Positions 9,314 to 17,605 of a stretch of DNA of 41,024 nucleotides are shown in pieces. Origin of the DNA: Chloroflexota bacterium (GTDB taxonomy: Bacteria > Chloroflexota > Anaerolineae > Anaerolineales > Anaerolineaceae); contig JAJYIW010000004.1 in the NCBI GenBank assembly GCA_021789855.1, positions 1 through 41,024 on the forward strand, written 5' to 3'. The notes below the pieces were generated by a model. It saw only the letters and a list, made by a program, of their open reading frames with translations, did no database searches and was not told the DNA's origin. How positions within the stretch are numbered: the stretch's first letter is position 1; every line of letters starts with the position of its first letter. Position numbers and translations under genes: made by a program.

Positions 9314-9895
9314 TTACGACACAGCCGAAGCCCGCATCCTCCGGACGAGGATAATCACGACCAGCAACAAAATCGTGATTCCAATCAGGCCAGGAATGCC
9401 CACATCCTCCGCAAAACCTGTTTTGGGCAGCGATTGGGTGGCAGTGGGGCCTGACGTTTCCGTCAACCTGGCTTCGGCAGCCTGAGTAAGCAAGGCGGCC
9501 ACGGTGGCTGTCCTCGGATCGAGTGCAGCCAGTTGGGCTGCAGTGCTGGTCGGCTGCGCCAGCACGGGGGTGGATGACGGCTTGAGAGTAGGCGTAGAGG
9601 TGGCAGTGGGGGGAACCCGGGTGGCCGTTGCCGTAGGCAGGCTGGCAGCCTCTTCCGTTAAAGCCGCTACCGTGGCCGTATTGTTGGCATTAATCAGGGC
9701 GATCTGGGCAGCGCGCTGTTTTTGGCTCTGGGGTAAAATCACGACCAGGAACAAGACCAGGGCAATAATTGCCAGCACGAAAACCCCACCCAGCACACCC
9801 AGGATGATCAAAAAATTCCGGTTAGTCGATGGCTTAGGCGGTTGCTGCTCAGGTTCGGGAGTTCCAGTCTCGTCAATATCGAAATTGTCAGCCAT
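9314..9895 (-). CDS. Membrane protein with LPKTG sortase-like C-terminal signal
   Basis: A 193-residue protein with no recognised enzymatic domain. A charged, Pro-rich N-terminus (1-26) leads to a strong membrane helix (28-54). An Ala/Thr/Pro-rich outer segment holds two copies of a TATVAAL motif (about 73-79 and 129-135). The C-terminus is a classical cell-wall sorting signal: LPKTG (156-160), a hydrophobic stretch (168-184) and a basic tail RRMR. Having both an N-terminal helix and a sorting signal is unusual. Sortase would cut between Thr and Gly. No sortase gene lies in the window, and the motif may simply act as a second anchor. The start is supported by GGAGA eight bases upstream. Confidence 0.75.
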   Translation of the reverse strand: MADNFDIDETGTPEPEQQPPKPSTNRNFLIILGVLGGVFVLAIIALVLFLVVILPQSQKQRAAQIALINANNTATVAALTEEAASLPTATATRVPPTATSTPTLKPSSTPVLAQPTSTAAQLAALDPRTATVAALLTQAAEARLTETSGPTATQSLPKTGFAEDVGIPGLIGITILLLVVIILVRRMRASAVS

Positions 9896-9925: not shown

Positions 9926-10981
9926 TTATTCGATTATTTCCAGGTTAGCCAGTGCCGCAGCAGTCTTTTCACCATTATCTAACTGCAATATGGCAGAGGG
10001 CGCCCGAACACCACTGGGAAAGGCTGTCAGCCCGGGCCTCAGTGTAGCAATGGTAGCAACCGTTCCCTTGCCAGGAAATTGGGTGACACGAACGGTCTGC
10101 CCTGGCGCAAAAATGTCCGCTTCACGGGGCGGTATCGATGAACCGCTTGAAGGTAATGGGATGATCAATTCGGGCCTGCTACGATTATAACGGTTCCACG
10201 GCATGGCGTTAACACAAATTTCCCGTTTTTCACTGGTTGACAGGATCTTATAGGTGGGCTCATCCATGGGAAGGCGCCCTATCCCGCTGAGCGCTACGAT
10301 AGGCATGGTCGCTTCATTGGCCAATGGTAGCAGCTCAGGGGTGAGGCTGGCAACGATCAGCGCCCGGATTGGGATTTCGGCTGCCGCCCGAATCACCTCC
10401 GCCTGGGTGCACGGCCCTCCCAGGACAACCGCGCCACGCATGCTCACATCCAGGCGGTCGGGTAAAAGCTCATCATCCGGGCTACGAGCTACCACCGTCA
10501 ACAGGCCTCCCTCAATCCGGCCATTGCCCCAAATGCCCTGGATCAGAGCGCCAACCGTTTCAATGATGACGCCGCGGTCAGGGATCAGCTCACTCACCAC
10601 CCCGCTCATGCCGGCGCGCAGCTCAAATGGCCGGGTTACCAGCTCGATCAACACCTGCCCGCCTCCCACCGCCACCACCCGCCCTGGCTTGGGAGCCCTG
10701 ATCGCCCTGGCAAAGAGCCCTACCGGTCCAGCGATCACGTCCCCCTCGGCCACATCATCGCCAACCTTCCGCTGGATCAGCTTATCGGCCCGATCCGGCG
10801 ACAGGCCTAAGCCTCGGGCTACCTCCAACACCAGGTGTTCGGTAAATAAGCGAGCCTCAGCCACCACATCCGTCGAGGAAACCTTTTGACCCGCGCGAAC
10901 CATCACCCGTCCATTAACCGGCAGAGCTCGCTCGCGGCGAATCGTAGTAAGAGGAAGTAAATGCGTTACCGGTGAAAACAT
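9926..10981 (-). CDS. Uncharacterised protein with barrel/KOW-like segments, last gene of MutL operon
   Basis: A 351-residue soluble protein I cannot name. The N-terminal 120 residues contain Gly- and Val-rich turns of the kind seen in barrel-sandwich or SBHM folds (NGRVMVRAGQKVSS, VGDDVAEGDVIAGPVG, APKPGRVVAVGGGQVL). The middle part has GAVVLGGPCTQAEVIRAAAE and RALIVASLTP, suggesting a Rossmann-like half. The C-terminus has a KOW-like stretch (FAPGQTVRVTQFPGKGTVAT). The ATG at 10981 is preferred, with a weak GGGA seven bases upstream; an in-frame TTG lies at 10999, and the frame is open further upstream. It lies 43 bp after the MutL-type gene and is probably its partner. The function is unknown. 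Confidence 0.8.
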   Translation of the reverse strand: MFSPVTHLLPLTTIRRERALPVNGRVMVRAGQKVSSTDVVAEARLFTEHLVLEVARGLGLSPDRADKLIQRKVGDDVAEGDVIAGPVGLFARAIRAPKPGRVVAVGGGQVLIELVTRPFELRAGMSGVVSELIPDRGVIIETVGALIQGIWGNGRIEGGLLTVVARSPDDELLPDRLDVSMRGAVVLGGPCTQAEVIRAAAEIPIRALIVASLTPELLPLANEATMPIVALSGIGRLPMDEPTYKILSTSEKREICVNAMPWNRYNRSRPELIIPLPSSGSSIPPREADIFAPGQTVRVTQFPGKGTVATIATLRPGLTAFPSGVRAPSAILQLDNGEKTAAALANLEIIE

Positions 10982-10998
10982 AAAAAAGTCCCAAACCA

Positions 10999-11020
10999 AT
11001 GTTGCAAGATCTGTACCAAC
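10999..11020. repeat. Copy A of a dispersed 22-bp repeat
   Basis: ATGTTGCAAGATC, two bases, then TACCAAC. The same 22-bp stretch occurs at 17700-17721 with only two mismatches. This copy is in the junction between the last two genes of the operon, overlapping the extra 5' codons of the terminal gene; the other lies just upstream of the operon promoter. Confidence 0.5.
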
Positions 11021-11024
11021 AATT

Positions 11025-12770
11025 TCAACCGCCCAATGTCCATTGCCATTTTTTTATTTGTTCCCGGCGACGGGCATCATCTGCGGGCAGGCCTAAGGGC
11101 CGGCCACGGGCATCGATCACCAGCCCCAGCACGCCGCCCACCACGTTTAAACTGCTGGAGCCTGTGCGGCCCAGGCCAATATGGGTGCCGTGTGAGTATT
11201 CCAGGCGTAGACGCGCCTTCTGGCCTTGCGGCAAGGGCAATACCACCAGCGATCCCTGTTTGATATCCCAATGCGTCTCAGCGCCGCCTTCTACCGTCAT
11301 CTTCGCCCGCATCATTAATGTGCCATACCTGGCGTCGCTGACAGGAGACACAACCGTCCCCAGGTTCATAAACGCGCTCGATTCAAGAATTTGGACGGGG
11401 AGTAAGGAGTTAACCGCCGCTGCCGCGCCGAGCGTGGCCAGCAGGTTATTTTGATCGAGCACAAAAGTGGTCACTCCCACCGGCTGAAGGCCATCCAAAA
11501 GCATCAAAAGCGCCTGGCCAGGGGTAGGCGCCTGGGAAAAAATAGACCCACTGGCGATAATCGGCTCAAAAGCGGTAGTCAGCCCAAGGTTGGTGGAGTA
11601 ATTGACCTGGGGGTGCCAACCCGACATCTGGCGCATGGCAAGGCGCAGGATGAGCCGCGCACAGGCCTGTTCTATCGCCAGGTCATCCAGCGTGGTAGGA
11701 ACGGCCCCAGGGTGGTACAGTTTATTATAAATGTACTCGCTGATATCCTTTTCTTGCACCAACAGCGGCAGCCAATGATTGATCTCCGCGATGTGCGGCA
11801 GAATCCCGGATAGCCCATCTCCCATCCCCAAAGGTTGAAAAACATTTAAAGAGAGCTTACCCCCAAAACCCGCAGCCACCGTGGTGGTATTGGCACCTAC
11901 ATCGATTCCTAACACCCCCTTGTTCGTCGTATAGACCTGGCTCAAAAAACGAATCATGCGACCGTAAGAGGAGGAAGTCAAAGAAAGATTGCCATTGACC
12001 AGATCAAACAATTGCCGTACCCCCGTCATCTGGCGCATGCGGATATTCAAGACGGCGTCATTCATCACGGCCTGGGCCGGGCTAAAATCTTCTGTGGCAA
12101 AATTGGGGCGAATGTTGGGGGCCAATCTCACCGTGGTAAACCGATCCAGCTTGGTCTTCACCCGTTCCGATAAGGCCTGGTTGCCGGCATAAATAACCTC
12201 TGGTCTTTTCTCAGAAGGAAGTAAAAAGCAAGCCAGTCCGATAATATCCAGCAACTTCATAACCGAGCGACTGGCGCCCCCTTCAAGACCACCGGCGATC
12301 ACCACCAGATCGGGTTGCGCCCGGATGATGGCATCTATTTTGGTTTCCATGCTGCGCCGGTCAATCAAGCCCAGGTTTTCCACCACAGCGCTGTACGTGG
12401 AGGCCACCAGTCGCTGGGCGCTTTCCAGGGACACATCCGATAACAATCCGACCACGACGGTTTGAATGGATGGGCCAATGGAAAACGTGCACACCATGGC
12501 ATCAATCCCGGTCCCATCTCCCTTTGCAGGCACAATTAACCGCCCGTCCTTACCGATGAACGTTCGCCCGGTGATTTCTTGAAGGTTATCCAGCGCCTGG
12601 TGCGCACCTTCACTGATGTTATTGTACGTTCCTTCGAACGTTGTCGGTGCAGTACCGGCAGCCAGGAAGCGGTAAGACCCGTCGGCTACGTCAAACAGGA
12701 AAGCTCGTGTATTAACCGAGCCCACATCAATTGCCAGCAAGGAATCAACATCAATCAGTGAAGTCATCAT
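11025..12770 (-). CDS. MutL/GlmL-family ASKHA ATPase, without a neighbouring mutase
   Basis: A 581-residue actin/Hsp70-fold protein of the glutamate mutase MutL (GlmL) family. Phosphate-1 loop LLAIDVGSVNTRAF (11-24), phosphate-2 loop GVLGIDVGANTTTVA (285-299) and a Gly-rich VVIAGGLEGGAS (157-167) are visible. In clostridia GlmL is encoded with the glutamate mutase subunits and is thought to reactivate that B12 enzyme. No mutase, B12 or glutamate gene is present here. Its neighbours are membrane proteins, so another role, such as powering or nucleating a membrane complex in the manner of FtsA or PilM, is more attractive. That is inference. Two consecutive ATGs (12770, 12767) are possible starts, and the Shine-Dalgarno is poor. 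Translation is probably coupled, nine bases after the upstream gene. Confidence 0.85.
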   Translation of the reverse strand: MMTSLIDVDSLLAIDVGSVNTRAFLFDVADGSYRFLAAGTAPTTFEGTYNNISEGAHQALDNLQEITGRTFIGKDGRLIVPAKGDGTGIDAMVCTFSIGPSIQTVVVGLLSDVSLESAQRLVASTYSAVVENLGLIDRRSMETKIDAIIRAQPDLVVIAGGLEGGASRSVMKLLDIIGLACFLLPSEKRPEVIYAGNQALSERVKTKLDRFTTVRLAPNIRPNFATEDFSPAQAVMNDAVLNIRMRQMTGVRQLFDLVNGNLSLTSSSYGRMIRFLSQVYTTNKGVLGIDVGANTTTVAAGFGGKLSLNVFQPLGMGDGLSGILPHIAEINHWLPLLVQEKDISEYIYNKLYHPGAVPTTLDDLAIEQACARLILRLAMRQMSGWHPQVNYSTNLGLTTAFEPIIASGSIFSQAPTPGQALLMLLDGLQPVGVTTFVLDQNNLLATLGAAAAVNSLLPVQILESSAFMNLGTVVSPVSDARYGTLMMRAKMTVEGGAETHWDIKQGSLVVLPLPQGQKARLRLEYSHGTHIGLGRTGSSSLNVVGGVLGLVIDARGRPLGLPADDARRREQIKKWQWTLGG

Positions 12771-12779
12771 GGAGTGCTT

Positions 12780-13463
12780 TTATCCCAAAAAGGGATGCAA
12801 TAAATTAAGAATAGTATTCCAGACGAATGAAACGCGTTCGATTAAGGCCGTTAAGGCGGCCGAATAGACGCCGGCAAAAAGGGCGCCCAGGGTAATGCCG
12901 AGAAACACCTGGCCCACCTTAGCCAGTAATTCAATGACGGGGCCGCGGTCCAGGGTACGATCGGGCTTCGATCGTGTTGAAAAATAAAAATACATCAAAG
13001 TGGTCAAGGAACCCACCAGGATTAAAGAGCCATCGGCCAGTTGCAACGCCGGCGGAATCTGGTTGGCTGCACCGGCGTTCAAATCGAACAGGTTAACCGT
13101 CGCCATCACCTGCGGTACCAGGCTACCGACCATCAACCCACCGATAGTGATGGAAGCGCCTGCCCCCACCAGGTAAGCCATCGGGATATCCCCAATGCGA
13201 GAAATACGGGGAAATAATTTGGCCAGGAGCAGCAGGCACAATACCAGGGGTACCAGCCCAATCAGCGAACCCTTAGTTAGAGGAAGGATCAATTGAGGCC
13301 ATATCACCTGCTCGACCAGGGTTAAAAACACATAGCCTGCAGCTACACCGACGAACAAATAGGTGGCCAGGCGAAAGAAGACGTTATCTCCCAGGAGATA
13401 ACTAAAAATCATAAGGGTGACTAAAAAACCGACCAGACCCCAAATCAAATCAGCCTGCGGCAT
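12780..13463 (-). CDS. Six-helix membrane protein of the MutL operon
   Basis: A 227-residue integral membrane protein not assigned to a family. Hydrophobic segments lie at about 5-24, 30-50, 66-82, 94-120, 145-162 and 180-205. A short outward loop contains NLFDLNAGAANQIPPALQLADG. It is packed with small residues (Gly, Ala) in helices and has few charged membrane residues, so it resembles a structural or scaffold component more than a transporter. It starts two bases after the stop of the zinc-ribbon gene and ends nine bases before the MutL gene, making cotranslation almost certain. The function is unknown; its role is inferred only from the operon. Confidence 0.8.
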   Translation of the reverse strand: MPQADLIWGLVGFLVTLMIFSYLLGDNVFFRLATYLFVGVAAGYVFLTLVEQVIWPQLILPLTKGSLIGLVPLVLCLLLLAKLFPRISRIGDIPMAYLVGAGASITIGGLMVGSLVPQVMATVNLFDLNAGAANQIPPALQLADGSLILVGSLTTLMYFYFSTRSKPDRTLDRGPVIELLAKVGQVFLGITLGALFAGVYSAALTALIERVSFVWNTILNLLHPFLG

Positions 13464-13465
13464 AG

Positions 13466-15976
13466 CTAAGCCTCACCTCTCGGATGGCGGCTGGAGCGGA
13501 TGGCCATCCAGATACCCGCCACACCGCCGATCAAGATTAAAGCGATCATGACGACGAGGCCAAACTGGTAAGAATCCCAAAACGCCAGCATGCCCCCCGA
13601 GCGGCCAACTGCCTGTTCAAAGGTCACTCCACCTGCCAGTCCGGTCACCATACCTGTGATCTGGCCAGAATCCAGGTACGGGCTGATCATCGGCGCAGAT
13701 TGAGCGCTCACCACCATCAATAATGGCGTGCTGCCCATAGAAGGCTTGACCTGTTCGACCCAGTTCCGGGCAGTATCCGCGTTATCGGTTAATACCAGGA
13801 CGCGAGAGAAATCCGCCAGAGTCTTAATCCCATTCAGGGGCGGCGTAGACCAATCCCCTGTTCCGCCGCTTTTAAGCAAGTCCATACTGGTCTGCACGCC
13901 CAAAGATAAATTGAACAGCGCAGCAGGGCCGCCAGCCAGGTAGCCTAAACTGGCCACCTTATTGGTCGGCGAATAGGTGGGCTGGAGAGCGATGGCTCGA
14001 TTCAACAAGTTATGCGCCAGGATCGGGCCGGCGGGGTTGGTCGAGACGAAGACGATGTTGGCTGACCTGGCCATCAACTGGGCCAACACACCCGCCGAAA
14101 CCGTTTCCACTTCCCCCGAGAGTCCAGGGTCATATTCAACAGCGACCAGCACCGTCGAGCCAGCCGGGAGGGTATTGATGGATTGTGCCATCATGCTGGT
14201 AGGCGGCCCCGGGTAGGTCAGCAGTGGGGTTACCGTTCCCCCCATCCCGATCGGCAGTCCAACGGCCACGATCAGGATCAGCGCGATCATGATCCGGAGA
14301 GCCCGGTGCGTATGAGAGGGTCGTTCTCGAGTGACCTTCTGCGGCTCCGTTTCAACCGCGAGGAGAGTTTGAAGCAAAGCTGCATTCGTACGCTGCTTCT
14401 CAGAAACCGCCAATTTAACGGAATAGATCGCGGGTTTCCGAAATCCCGCCAGTGCGGGTTCAGGCGGAATAATCCCTCGCACACCTGCCAACGGGCCGGT
14501 GTTCTCGACCCTTTCATCCGAGGTAGGTGTTTCTTTGACCGCCGGTGTAGCTGTTTCGATCGGACGCATGGCCTGCACCCAGCCAGGTAATTCGGCCGGC
14601 GCCAACCCGGCCTCTTCCTCACTTTTTTTAACCGGCTGAGGCTGATTTTTAGACACAGGTTCTGGTTGGGCTGGAGCGGAAGAAATGACCTCTGGCGGCC
14701 CCAGATGCACCAGCCAATCCGGCATTTCATCTGTCACAAAGGGCCTGATCTCGGCCTGCTCGCCGGTGATCGGCGATTCATCGTAGATGAGGGCCGGAGT
14801 TTGAGGTGTTTCGCTCTCGGGAGCTTCTTGCGGCTTGAGATCCGTCATCCAACCGGGTATTTGCCCTTTCGCCAGCTCTTCCTCTGGTTTTTCCGGCTCC
14901 GGCTGGGCGGTCGCCTGGATCGATTTTTCTTCAGCCTGGTCTCCCTGGGCCGGTGTTTCACTCGACGTTATACCCGACAACCAATCAGGGAGGTCGGCGC
15001 TCCAGGCTACTTCCTCCTCTGGCTTTTCCGCACCGCCAGCTTCCAACCCGGCCTCCAACGAAGAAGGTCGCTCCACCCCTCCGGGCTCATGGAAGGCCGC
15101 TGATTCAGGAGGTATTTCCTCAGCCTTTTCGGATGCAGAAGGTTCTTCCCCAGCCGAAAGCCAATCTGGAAATTGCACCTCCCATTCTGCCTTGCTCTCG
15201 ACTTCCCCCTGCTTTTTTTCTATTCCCGAAAACCAATCAGGCTGCTGGACTTCACGACCATCCGTACCAGATTGCGGAGCGGATTCCTCGCCCGGCTTTT
15301 CGGACGGCCCAGGCAGTGTGGGAGGGTTAGAAGCGTTTTCCGGCTTGGCGGCCTGCGATAATTCCTTTAGCCAGGCTGGTAATTCCTCGTCTGAAAGAGA
15401 TGCGTCTTCAGGCGTCTCATGATCATGGACCGCTTCAGATGGTCTGTCTTCACCCCCAGGCTCGATCCGGTTCAACCAGTCCGAAGAATCGGCACCTGAC
15501 TGATCGGCCGGTTCACCCGGGCCAGGTTCATTTTTCTCCGGCTCATTGCCCGTTGGAACCTCGCGTAAGCTGCTCAGCCAATCTTCAGAGTCGCCGGTTC
15601 CAGCCGGTTCACCCGGCGCCTTCTCATCTGCCGGCTGGCTGGTGTCATCCGTCCCGATACGTGATAACCAGGCGGCAAATTCTTCATCGGGCGCGCTCTT
15701 GGAATCTTCAGGCTTGGATGGTTCAGCAGGCTCTTGAGCCAGAGGACCTGGGATAAACACCCTTTTTTCCGACTGGCCTGTGGCGCCATTCTGGGAATCG
15801 CGCAACGAATCAAGCCAATCTTCGTTTTTTTGCGATGGTTGGTGGCCAGCTTGTTGTGGCGAGCGAGACGAATCCCCTCTTTTGGGTTCTGCCTTTAAAC
15901 GCGTTCCACAATACCGGCAGGAGTCCACATCCGCCGGGTTAGGCCTACCACATAAAGGACAACGAACCATAGCCAT
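13466..15976 (-). CDS. Zinc-ribbon membrane protein with eleven Trp linear motifs
   Basis: An 836-residue protein with a remarkable architecture. It opens with a zinc ribbon (CPLC 6-9, CRYC 20-23). Residues about 30-500 are acidic, Pro/Glu/Ser-rich and surely disordered, but carry eleven copies of a short (D/A/G)W(L/F/M/V)xxL-type motif, with Trp at about 54, 103, 133, 167, 202, 248, 272, 332, 376, 421 and 466. A membrane helix (about 559-579), an outer domain of about 220 residues (GSTVLVAVEYDPGLSGE ... VLVLTDNADTARNW) and a second helix near the C-terminus follow. Evenly spread Trp motifs look like docking sites for a repeated or polymeric partner. It lies between two six-helix genes in the MutL operon. 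A GGTGG sits nine bases before the ATG. Confidence 0.85.
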   Translation of the reverse strand: MAMVRCPLCGRPNPADVDSCRYCGTRLKAEPKRGDSSRSPQQAGHQPSQKNEDWLDSLRDSQNGATGQSEKRVFIPGPLAQEPAEPSKPEDSKSAPDEEFAAWLSRIGTDDTSQPADEKAPGEPAGTGDSEDWLSSLREVPTGNEPEKNEPGPGEPADQSGADSSDWLNRIEPGGEDRPSEAVHDHETPEDASLSDEELPAWLKELSQAAKPENASNPPTLPGPSEKPGEESAPQSGTDGREVQQPDWFSGIEKKQGEVESKAEWEVQFPDWLSAGEEPSASEKAEEIPPESAAFHEPGGVERPSSLEAGLEAGGAEKPEEEVAWSADLPDWLSGITSSETPAQGDQAEEKSIQATAQPEPEKPEEELAKGQIPGWMTDLKPQEAPESETPQTPALIYDESPITGEQAEIRPFVTDEMPDWLVHLGPPEVISSAPAQPEPVSKNQPQPVKKSEEEAGLAPAELPGWVQAMRPIETATPAVKETPTSDERVENTGPLAGVRGIIPPEPALAGFRKPAIYSVKLAVSEKQRTNAALLQTLLAVETEPQKVTRERPSHTHRALRIMIALILIVAVGLPIGMGGTVTPLLTYPGPPTSMMAQSINTLPAGSTVLVAVEYDPGLSGEVETVSAGVLAQLMARSANIVFVSTNPAGPILAHNLLNRAIALQPTYSPTNKVASLGYLAGGPAALFNLSLGVQTSMDLLKSGGTGDWSTPPLNGIKTLADFSRVLVLTDNADTARNWVEQVKPSMGSTPLLMVVSAQSAPMISPYLDSGQITGMVTGLAGGVTFEQAVGRSGGMLAFWDSYQFGLVVMIALILIGGVAGIWMAIRSSRHPRGEA

Positions 15977-15981
15977 ATTTA

Positions 15982-16590
15982 TTAACCACCGTACGGGCGT
16001 TCAGCGCCCAAGAGGATACGCAAGGACATGGTCAAGCTACCCAAGGCCACCCCGATTAAAATCCCACGCGCCCCGGCTACCGGTATCCGGTTAATCGCCA
16101 GGACAATGTTGTTAATGGCTGGCGAACTGCTGGCGGTCAGATAGCTTATATTGATCAAAAGATAGACCAGCGCACTGATCACAAAGGTAACCAGGAGCAG
16201 ATTTAACTTCCGGCGAAATATCCTGAGGCCGGCAAATGCAAGGGTAACACTCAGCAAAGCCATGAGGGTCATTTCAGCGGCAAATTGAATTTGCGTGATC
16301 CACTGGATGTAAGCCGGCCTGAGCGTAACACCCAAGATCAATGTAGCCAGGAAACCGGCCAGGACGACCAGGCTGTACCCGTAACCGTGTTTACGCGTGG
16401 CAATCTTGTGCCAATGCATTGAGAGGAGATTGATGATCCCGATCAGGCTGGCTCCGGCTGCCAGAATAATGGCCCAATTAAGCACGTATTGAAGCGGTGC
16501 CCTTAACACCGGGAAAAAGGACTGTAAAAAATAGCCGGCCAGGACACATAGCCCAATAACGATAGCAATAATGGTGGATACGATTTTCAT
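15982..16590 (-). CDS. Six-helix membrane protein of the MutL operon, second
   Basis: A 202-residue integral membrane protein without a recognised family. Six hydrophobic segments are visible (starting MKIVSTIIAIVIGLCVLAGY and ending near GILIGVALGSLTMSLRILLG). The start at 16590 is chosen because its ATG overlaps the upstream stop as ATGA, a typical coupling; a longer reading from 16659 would lie inside the upstream gene and adds a non-hydrophobic extension. The final stretch NRIPVAGARGILIGVALGSL contains small residues compatible with helix packing. Together with the other membrane proteins of the operon it probably forms one complex. No function can be stated. Confidence 0.8.
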   Translation of the reverse strand: MKIVSTIIAIVIGLCVLAGYFLQSFFPVLRAPLQYVLNWAIILAAGASLIGIINLLSMHWHKIATRKHGYGYSLVVLAGFLATLILGVTLRPAYIQWITQIQFAAEMTLMALLSVTLAFAGLRIFRRKLNLLLVTFVISALVYLLINISYLTASSSPAINNIVLAINRIPVAGARGILIGVALGSLTMSLRILLGAERPYGG

Positions 16591-17339
16591 GGCAATCCAA
16601 GTGGTAGACCCATAAGCTTGAGTGCTGCCCCAACCAGTGTGGCAATGATAATGACCCAACGGAGAACATCCTGGGCGCGCAGGCTGGCTGCCTGGTATGG
16701 CTTCCCCTGGAGATAGGCGCTGCTGGCAAACAGCTCCTCACCCAACAAGGCTTCCTGGGACGTCGCATAAAAAACCGCCTGGGCAGAGAGATCATCACTG
16801 GCTGCCAGGGTAAACGTGGCCTCTTGTTCTGAACGGTCGGCCAGCAGAGCGGCTTCAGGACCAAAATTTCCGATCAATATATTGGCTGACGCCTGTTCAT
16901 CGTGCAAAACAGGCAGAGTCCCGGCGACATAAGACAAGGGTGTCGCACCGGTCAGGCTGCCCAGGTAAGGATCATAGAAATCGGCGGCATGCATATCCCG
17001 GTAAGTTGAGCTGAGCACATCCTGGCTGAGAACAGCCAGGCTCCCATCCCCGCTGGTCGCCATAGGCGGGTTATCACTGATCGAGCTCATTTGAGCTACT
17101 CGCTCCAGGGTACTTAAACCAACCAGGCCGGGCGCAGCCCGGGTACTGTAGATGCTGGATTTACCAAGGGAAATATGAAGGCGCGATCCATCCTCCACCG
17201 CCAGGCCAATGGACTGGCGAAGCAGGTTGAAAGCCTGTAACGGACGGATGCCCCGCATCGGACGTTTACGGTACAGGATGCGAAATACCACCATCAACAG
17301 GGCACATAAGATAACGATCGCCAGACCAACCAGATTCAC
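16587..17339 (-). CDS. Doubly anchored protein of the MutL operon (possibly DUF6754-like)
   Basis: A 250-residue protein. An N-terminal helix (about 2-21) and a basic patch (YRKRPMRG) precede a soluble domain of about 190 residues, and a second helix closes the protein (about 226-248). The basic patch after helix one suggests the domain is cytoplasmic. The domain contains SIYSTRAAPGLVGLSTLERVA, AADFYDPYLGSLTGATPLSYVAG and AVFYATSQEALLGEELFASSAYL. I associate this with the uncharacterised DUF6754 of Chloroflexota, from memory and with low certainty. Its ATG overlaps the upstream stop by four bases, and its own stop overlaps the next ATG. The layout of anchor-domain-anchor parallels the zinc-ribbon protein. 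Confidence 0.78.
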   Translation of the reverse strand: MNLVGLAIVILCALLMVVFRILYRKRPMRGIRPLQAFNLLRQSIGLAVEDGSRLHISLGKSSIYSTRAAPGLVGLSTLERVAQMSSISDNPPMATSGDGSLAVLSQDVLSSTYRDMHAADFYDPYLGSLTGATPLSYVAGTLPVLHDEQASANILIGNFGPEAALLADRSEQEATFTLAASDDLSAQAVFYATSQEALLGEELFASSAYLQGKPYQAASLRAQDVLRWVIIIATLVGAALKLMGLPLGLP

Positions 17340-17590
17340 TGGACCTTATCCTCCCGCAGAAAAGTGGCAAACGAAAGGGTCTCTTCCCTATCTTCGAGTA
17401 ATTCAGCCAGGGCCTGAAGGTGACGGGATGCGTTCCCCCCACTTAAAAAGGGTTGCCCCAGATAGACCAACTGCGCTGCCAACGGTATCAATGGGCCTCC
17501 ACCTTCCAGCAAAAAGGAGATCATTTCTTTAATCCCACCACGTCTCAGAAACTGCGCCCAAACTGGCCAAAATTCTCGATCGGATTGCAT
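17336..17590 (-). CDS. Small soluble protein, first gene of the MutL operon
   Basis: An 84-residue protein, largely helical, beginning MQSDREFWPVWAQFLRRGG and ending in an acidic, amphipathic segment (LQALAELLEDREETLSFATF). No signal peptide or membrane helix is evident. The start at 17590 is preferred over an upstream in-frame TTG because a -10 element ends six bases before this ATG, implying a leaderless message. The TTG would lie at or upstream of the transcription start. The gene overlaps the next by four bases (ATGA). Being first and small, it may be a regulatory or assembly subunit. I do not recognise it. Confidence 0.7.
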   Translation of the reverse strand: MQSDREFWPVWAQFLRRGGIKEMISFLLEGGGPLIPLAAQLVYLGQPFLSGGNASRHLQALAELLEDREETLSFATFLREDKVQ

Positions 17591-17596
17591 GTCACC

Positions 17597-17605
17597 AGTA
17601 TAGCA
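17597..17605 (-). promoter_or_regulatory. Extended -10 promoter of the MutL operon
   Basis: On the minus strand TGC-TATACT (17605-17597) is an extended -10. It ends six bases before the ATG at 17590, so the mRNA should be leaderless. No -35 is obvious. It would drive all seven genes down to 9926, which are separated by overlaps or gaps of at most about 43 bp. Confidence 0.65.

Follow-up and report, generated by a model that had tools for sequence, protein, structure and literature searches.

The described accessory proteins of the MutL family of ASKHA ATPases, GlmL and Or-4, go with B12-dependent mutases. Among transport systems, the group II energy-coupling factor (ECF) transporters have one energising module that is shared by many substrate units. 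Here we analysed a stretch of 41,024 nucleotides (the window) from a Chloroflexota bacterium of the family Anaerolineaceae (GCA_021789855.1, contig JAJYIW010000004.1, positions 1 to 41,024), in which seven minus-strand genes, called A to G in their operon order, encode a MutL-family ATPase (F), four membrane proteins (B to E) and two other proteins (A and G). These genes very probably represent a conserved two-module membrane ATPase system. The best overall explanation, to which we assign a probability of about 0.45, is that A-F-G forms an ATPase module that drives or gates a B-C-D-E membrane complex, probably for solute uptake. The seven-gene set seems to be unstudied: a search of the open-access literature, with subscription papers and preprints outside its reach, found no paper on DUF6754 or PF13941, the families of B and F, and none describing this system.

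F and the mutase-linked MutL proteins

Like GlmL and Or-4, F matches the full length of the MutL family model PF13941 (E 4.7e-60, residues 12-464 of F), and the ASKHA motifs could be located by eye: phosphate-1 (AIDVGSVNT) at about residue 15, phosphate-2 (GIDVGANTTT) at 288 and adenosine (ASGS) at 406. It differs from these proteins in carrying about 130 extra C-terminal residues, in having A and G as partners, in belonging to a separate clade and in lacking an adjacent mutase. Its scores against the NCBI models fall below the cut-offs for GlmL (73.9 against 475 bits), Or-4 (51.9 against 600) and the GlmL family (50.8 against 204); proteins truly of the Or-4 type reach 594-656. An unrooted FastTree phylogeny with some long branches placed the 450-residue MutLs linked to mutases in a single clade (support 100), apart from the Chloroflexota clade of the window.

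The lack of a nearby glutamate mutase, already pointed out in the initial annotation of this stretch, was borne out by the genome. MutL is present there as a single copy, no B12-dependent mutase lies beside F in the window, and glutamate mutase E (PF06368) was not found in the genome. PF09043 also had no match, but its control likewise matched nowhere. One methylmalonyl-CoA-type mutase (PF01642) is encoded on a different contig, and no linkage to F was seen. The Bacillota genome G324 (genomes and loci of the comparison set carry G and L numbers) can serve as an internal control, because both kinds of MutL occur in it: a 455-residue MutL lies beside OraE (ornithine aminomutase), OrtB and an ornithine-racemase-like gene, and A-F-G is found at a separate location.

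The family name, the fold and the methylmalonyl-CoA-type mutase on another contig would fit F being an ordinary mutase chaperone that stands beside membrane genes by chance. However, we consider this highly improbable, since F occurs together with A, G and B-E, scores far under the cut-offs of both GlmL and Or-4, and comes from a genome with no glutamate mutase E. The equivalog scores, the absence of PF06368, the separate clade of mutase-linked MutLs and the OraE-linked MutL of G324 led us to reject F as a mutase chaperone, and the system to which it belongs is almost certainly not one.

Some MutL loci have unusual neighbours or gene lengths. For example, AmmeMemoRadiSam system protein A domains were seen near 450-residue MutL genes in two Bacillota loci (L217:7218-8621 and L213:3628-5058). 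The F of the Chloroflexota locus L245 has 1264 residues, with no G detected nearby, and very long MutL-containing frames (727-1273 residues) are present in G302, G312 and G334.

Conservation of F-G and of the two gene blocks

In most loci F adjoins G, and where the two are apart both are still present. In L224 they are fused into a protein of 937 residues (F 14-564, G 608-936), and single frames of 839-1158 residues with both domains were found in G322, G336, G344 and G346. Comparison of these loci shows F and G as constant partners, sometimes within a single polypeptide, and such gene fusions make F-G the only pair within the seven for which there is direct evidence of association. For G, the initial annotation had proposed a barrel/KOW-like protein. 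The barrel stands only as a weak match to RnfC_N (residues 85-119, 19.4 bits, under the cut-off of 25.6), and the KOW/SH3-like part is one that we infer from sequence. The likeness to the RnfC/NqrA barrel-sandwich does not extend beyond these 35 residues; G differs in having neither conserved Fe-S cysteines nor Rnf partners. Rnf-like electron transfer was rejected, given the sub-cut-off match, the absence of Rnf/Nqr matches in A-F and a G profile with no conserved cysteine.

Within the Chloroflexota, the first relatives tested had counterparts of the window proteins in unchanged order, and a profile search found the order A-B-C-D-E-F-(G) in 40 further loci from many families. The order was broken at contig ends, in four loci where A was undetected (L040, L043, L063 and L077) and in some families whose G does not adjoin F. 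G was present in all 14 genomes tested for it, three of which were controls with G adjacent to F; in the tested genomes of the families where it is not adjacent, it occurs once, away from F. Among 301 Chloroflexota genomes, DUF6754 was found in 67 and MutL above its cut-off in 122, with MutL in 65 of the 67 B-positive genomes versus 57 of the 234 B-negative ones (Fisher p 4e-29, uncorrected for phylogeny). In L077, one of the two B-positive, MutL-negative exceptions, F is cut off by the contig edge. In plasmid records, B was not found and F gave only low-identity GlmL-type matches.

Outside this phylum, a scan of the collection with B returned 314 relatives, 80 of which were kept. They span Bacillota, Armatimonadetes, Planctomycetota, WOR-3, Cloacimonadota, Eisenbacteria, Latescibacterota, Deltaproteobacteria, Muiribacterium and others. 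Here the genes are split into A-F-G and B-C-D-E blocks, often arranged as A-F-G-B-C-D-E, and WOR-3 has a tandem pair of B-C-D-E blocks. MutL was above the cut-off in 48 of 48 tested genomes bearing B (PF20539), and A and G were each found in 21 of 21 tested genomes of other phyla, A mostly adjoining F-G. Genomes carry between 1 and 27 copies of B, but only one A in 15 of the 21 genomes and at most three in the others. Comparison across genomes thus shows that A-F-G and B-C-D-E are each conserved as a gene block and that the two blocks go together. In rumen bacteria (L143-L151, L157), each locus has four D paralogues, in the order B-C-D-D-D-E-D.

The initial annotation had placed the MutL-type ATPase in an operon with membrane proteins and had called for a check of neighbourhood co-occurrence in related genomes, where a lack of conservation would have refuted it. 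Conservation was found, with the order kept phylum-wide and the parts co-occurring across phyla. What had been missed is the division of the operon into two modules, and the link of F-G with the zinc-ribbon/WL tail of D, described below.

Operon layout and the membrane unit

All seven proposed minus-strand genes were found at 9926-17590 (Table 1). They are indeed tightly packed, but the ATGA overlaps ascribed to them were overstated: there are two 4-nucleotide overlaps, GTGA at A/B and ATGA at B/C, and the remaining junctions are gaps (C/D 5, D/E 2, E/F 9 and F/G about 43 nucleotides). The TTG at 10999 taken by the open reading frame (ORF) caller as the start of G is probably too early, because relatives start at the M of MFSPVTHLL. 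The single leaderless promoter proposed earlier is supported by an extended -10 element, TGnTATACT, which lies 6-13 nucleotides ahead of the A start in nine loci (the window, L039, L041, L042, L044, L045, L048, L049 and L058). The eight relatives belong to the same family or order as the window. Since the element is kept in all of these, the near-leaderless start would be conserved and not a chance match, and a leaderless or near-leaderless start of A is credible.

Table 1. Predicted features of the operon and its surroundings in the window
Feature	Position	Strand	Basis
A: small helical soluble protein, 84 residues, first gene	17336-17590	-	ORF; profile matches in same position in most Chloroflexota loci
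B: DUF6754 (PF20539), predicted transmembrane (TM) helix - cytosolic Rossmann domain - TM	16587-17339	-	Pfam and AlphaFold2
C: polytopic membrane protein, about 6 TM, predicted N-in	15982-16590	-	Hydropathy, positive-inside rule; sits between B and D
D: zinc ribbon and disordered 11-WL tail (cytosolic), then TM - extracytosolic Rossmann domain - TM, as predicted	13466-15976	-	Weak zinc-ribbon matches, WL count, AlphaFold2
E: polytopic membrane protein, about 6 TM, predicted N-out	12780-13463	-	Positive-inside rule; colinear in relatives
F: MutL-family ASKHA ATPase with extra C-terminal domain, 581 residues	11025-12770	-	PF13941, motifs, tree
G: barrel-sandwich-like N-terminal part, middle domain, putative KOW/SH3-like C-terminal part; partner of F	9926-10981	-	Weak RnfC_N match, conserved profile
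Promoter, extended -10 TGCTATACT	17597-17605	-	6 nucleotides before ATG of A; leaderless-type start
H: TM, Ser/Thr/Pro-rich part and LPKTG-TM-RR tail	9314-9895	-	LPXTG anchor match; operon membership uncertain

B and F are the only proteins with an above-threshold Pfam family; the zinc-ribbon match of D, like the RnfC_N match of G, is sub-threshold. No further conserved partner gene recurred beyond close relatives, with the exception of H in the locus set. In the window, H directly follows G on the downstream side and has its first TM at the N-terminus. Its LPXTG anchor scores 20.9 bits against a cut-off of 15.9, and its family occurs in 15 loci of the set, adjoining G in Anaerolineae. H may be a lineage-specific extracytosolic partner.

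The protein types given in the initial annotation agree with what we found for F, for the anchor-domain-anchor protein B, for the six-helix proteins C and E and for the zinc-ribbon/Trp-motif protein D. B matches DUF6754 with a Pfam E of 2.4e-27 and was modelled by AlphaFold2 as TM-Rossmann-TM (predicted local distance difference test score, pLDDT, 94). The last 290 residues of D gave a model (pLDDT 91) with the same order of elements as B. The best fold matches of B in the PDB are RCK/KTN domains, which gate K+ channels and transporters (Z 11.2, root-mean-square deviation 3.1 over 125 residues), with other Rossmann folds at Z 9-10. For D, carbon monoxide dehydrogenase/acetyl-CoA synthase (CODH/ACS) epsilon was at the top (VIA, Z 9.0), which we read as a generic Rossmann match, and RCK domains reached Z 8.4. 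For neither protein did Foldseek return a match under E 1e-3. Pfam TrkA_N matched neither of them at E 0.05, nor did TrkA_C match B, which has DUF6754 as its only match. From the models, both proteins are predicted to be Rossmann folds, and no solved structure is a close relative. RCK/KTN domains, as in KtrA, TrkA and MthK, come closest in fold to B and rank among the top matches of D; B and D differ from them in having two TM helices of their own, an identity of about 7-10% and no K+ channel subunit. In other phyla, B can carry additions ahead of the DUF6754 part, such as N-terminal HEAT repeats in L126 and a weak N-terminal fn3 domain in L152.

C and E each have about six hydrophobic segments and no Pfam match, and no ABC_tran or permease matches were obtained in A-G. 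The K/R bias (for C, hydropathy and charge over 164 homologues) places the domain of B inside and that of D outside, with C N-in and E N-out, so that B and D probably face opposite sides of the membrane. As sequence paralogues, C and E found no support (hhalign probability 0.9%) and B and D were also rejected, the signal being weak (5.5% over a full-length alignment); their secondary-structure order is nevertheless identical.

Rossmann folds such as those of B and D are often nucleotide-binding, and F belongs to a family whose known relatives go with B12 mutases. A-F-G could therefore be imagined as an ATP-dependent reactivase or conformational chaperone that resets B or D in the way of GlmL or DdrA, perhaps through the release of a ligand or cofactor that is spent. 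We regard this as quite unlikely, since B and D have no known ligand and the operon contains no damaged-cofactor enzyme.

The cytosolic tail of D combines the zinc ribbon with 11 W[LFMVI] (WL) motifs, where shuffled sequences had a mean of 2.0 and none of 10,000 shuffles reached 11. D proteins of other phyla are about 288 residues long and have no tail. In Chloroflexota families without B-C-D-E, a free-standing, soluble-looking protein is encoded directly upstream of F-G. It carries a zinc ribbon at its N-terminus, followed by many WL motifs and usually by a basic aromatic C-terminus, and resembles the cytosolic tail of the window D. Because this element stands alone next to F-G in some genomes but is part of D in others, it hints, in the manner of a Rosetta-stone fusion, that the WL tail might connect F-G to the membrane unit. 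Tail length and WL count (0-75) are highly variable among Chloroflexota, and the D homologue of L089:11423-19408 has 2661 residues with 75 WL motifs in its tail.

Uptake, scaffolding and known systems

In peptide-fermenting Bacillota, B is present in 7-27 copies versus 1-3 for A. Among the near neighbours of B-C-D-E in these multi-copy Bacillota, 20 of 30 encode peptidases, amidohydrolases, aminotransferases or similar proteins, as opposed to one of ten genes lying farther off in loci of this kind. Counted by locus, the figures are about 12/19 versus 1/10 (Fisher p 0.008). The classes counted were S9, M20, M24, M28 and M10 peptidases, DUF885, amidohydrolases, aminotransferases, an oligopeptide-binding protein, FTCD and a beta-lactamase-family hydrolase; an oligopeptide ATP-binding cassette (ABC) ATPase in the distal set was not counted.

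In the mechanism that we favour, B-C-D-E would be a membrane complex of two polytopic and two TM-Rossmann-TM subunits, with B predicted to face the cytosol and D the outside. Soluble F, with G and A, would dock from the cytosolic side, binding B and, in Chloroflexota, also the WL motifs of the D tail, and could drive a conformational change through ATP binding and hydrolysis. More tentatively, B-C-D-E might take up solutes, with A-F-G as the shared module that energises or gates it. Such sharing would account for up to 27 B-C-D-E copies by peptidases and amidohydrolases but few A-F-G sets; the single copy in Chloroflexota could reflect one substrate or a housekeeping role. That the system is a transporter seems to us a real possibility from the sequence comparisons, at somewhat less than even odds. 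We regard a stronger claim as unlikely: that this is the first case of solute uptake driven or gated by an ASKHA ATPase, with a shared A-F-G serving many substrate-specific permeases of four proteins (B-C-D-E), in which one Rossmann subunit faces inwards and one outwards, and that such a system, common among uncultured bacteria, has so far escaped annotation.

Several points weigh against uptake. The topology is based on charge bias alone, and no transporter family matched C or E. The near/far comparison of neighbours is small, hand-classified and limited to a single bacterial clade, and many B-C-D-E copies have no catabolic neighbour, with two-component regulators, GGDEF proteins or a transposase in its place. 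The independent description of the Bacillota lineage as fermenting peptides and amino acids (PMC10215811) speaks for uptake, but it also raises the base rate of catabolic neighbours. Some Chloroflexota have F-G and the zinc-ribbon/WL protein with no TM partner nearby. Finally, FtsX-like permeases and ABC ATPases are neighbours of F-G paralogues in Bacillota (L211, L216, L219 and L221, with a tandem F-G-F-G in L211), where this kind of ATPase pair may serve a second membrane system. This suggests a general role in assembly or regulation instead of the energising of transport.

These paralogues lead to the main rival of uptake, in which F-G would be a scaffold or assembly ATPase resembling actin, FtsA or PilM and serving envelope complexes (B-C-D-E, FtsX/ABC or a WL-repeat scaffold), so that it shapes, senses or assembles but does not itself transport. 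The stand-alone zinc-ribbon/WL proteins, which end in basic aromatic helices like those of membrane targeting, would fit such a role, as would the multivalent tails, whose up to 75 motifs suggest clustering, and the fn3 or HEAT domains on B of some phyla. On the other hand, scaffolding does not easily explain why B-C-D-E copies have multiplied next to peptidases and amidohydrolases. We consider it rather unlikely, though the least so of the alternatives to uptake.

The system occurs in about a dozen bacterial lineages, with up to 27 copies per genome, and its genes are at present labelled only 'glutamate mutase L', DUF6754 or hypothetical proteins. A transporter would mean a new mechanism of energy coupling and would alter the diets read from the genomes of many uncultured fermenters; a scaffold would mean that bacteria have a further envelope system built on an actin fold. 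In both cases, many 'MutL' genes carry a mutase annotation that misleads.

Among known systems, the group II ECF transporters are alike in logic only, with few A-F-G sets and many B-C-D-E units; A-G differ from them in having an ASKHA ATPase in place of ABC ATPases and a four-gene membrane unit. FtsEX-FtsA and PilMNOP are alike in that membrane proteins whose domains reach outside the cytosol have an ASKHA ATPase on their inner side, and also in that the F-G paralogues adjoin FtsX-like proteins. They differ in that F is of the MutL type and that B-C-D-E has no match to FtsX, PilN or PilO.

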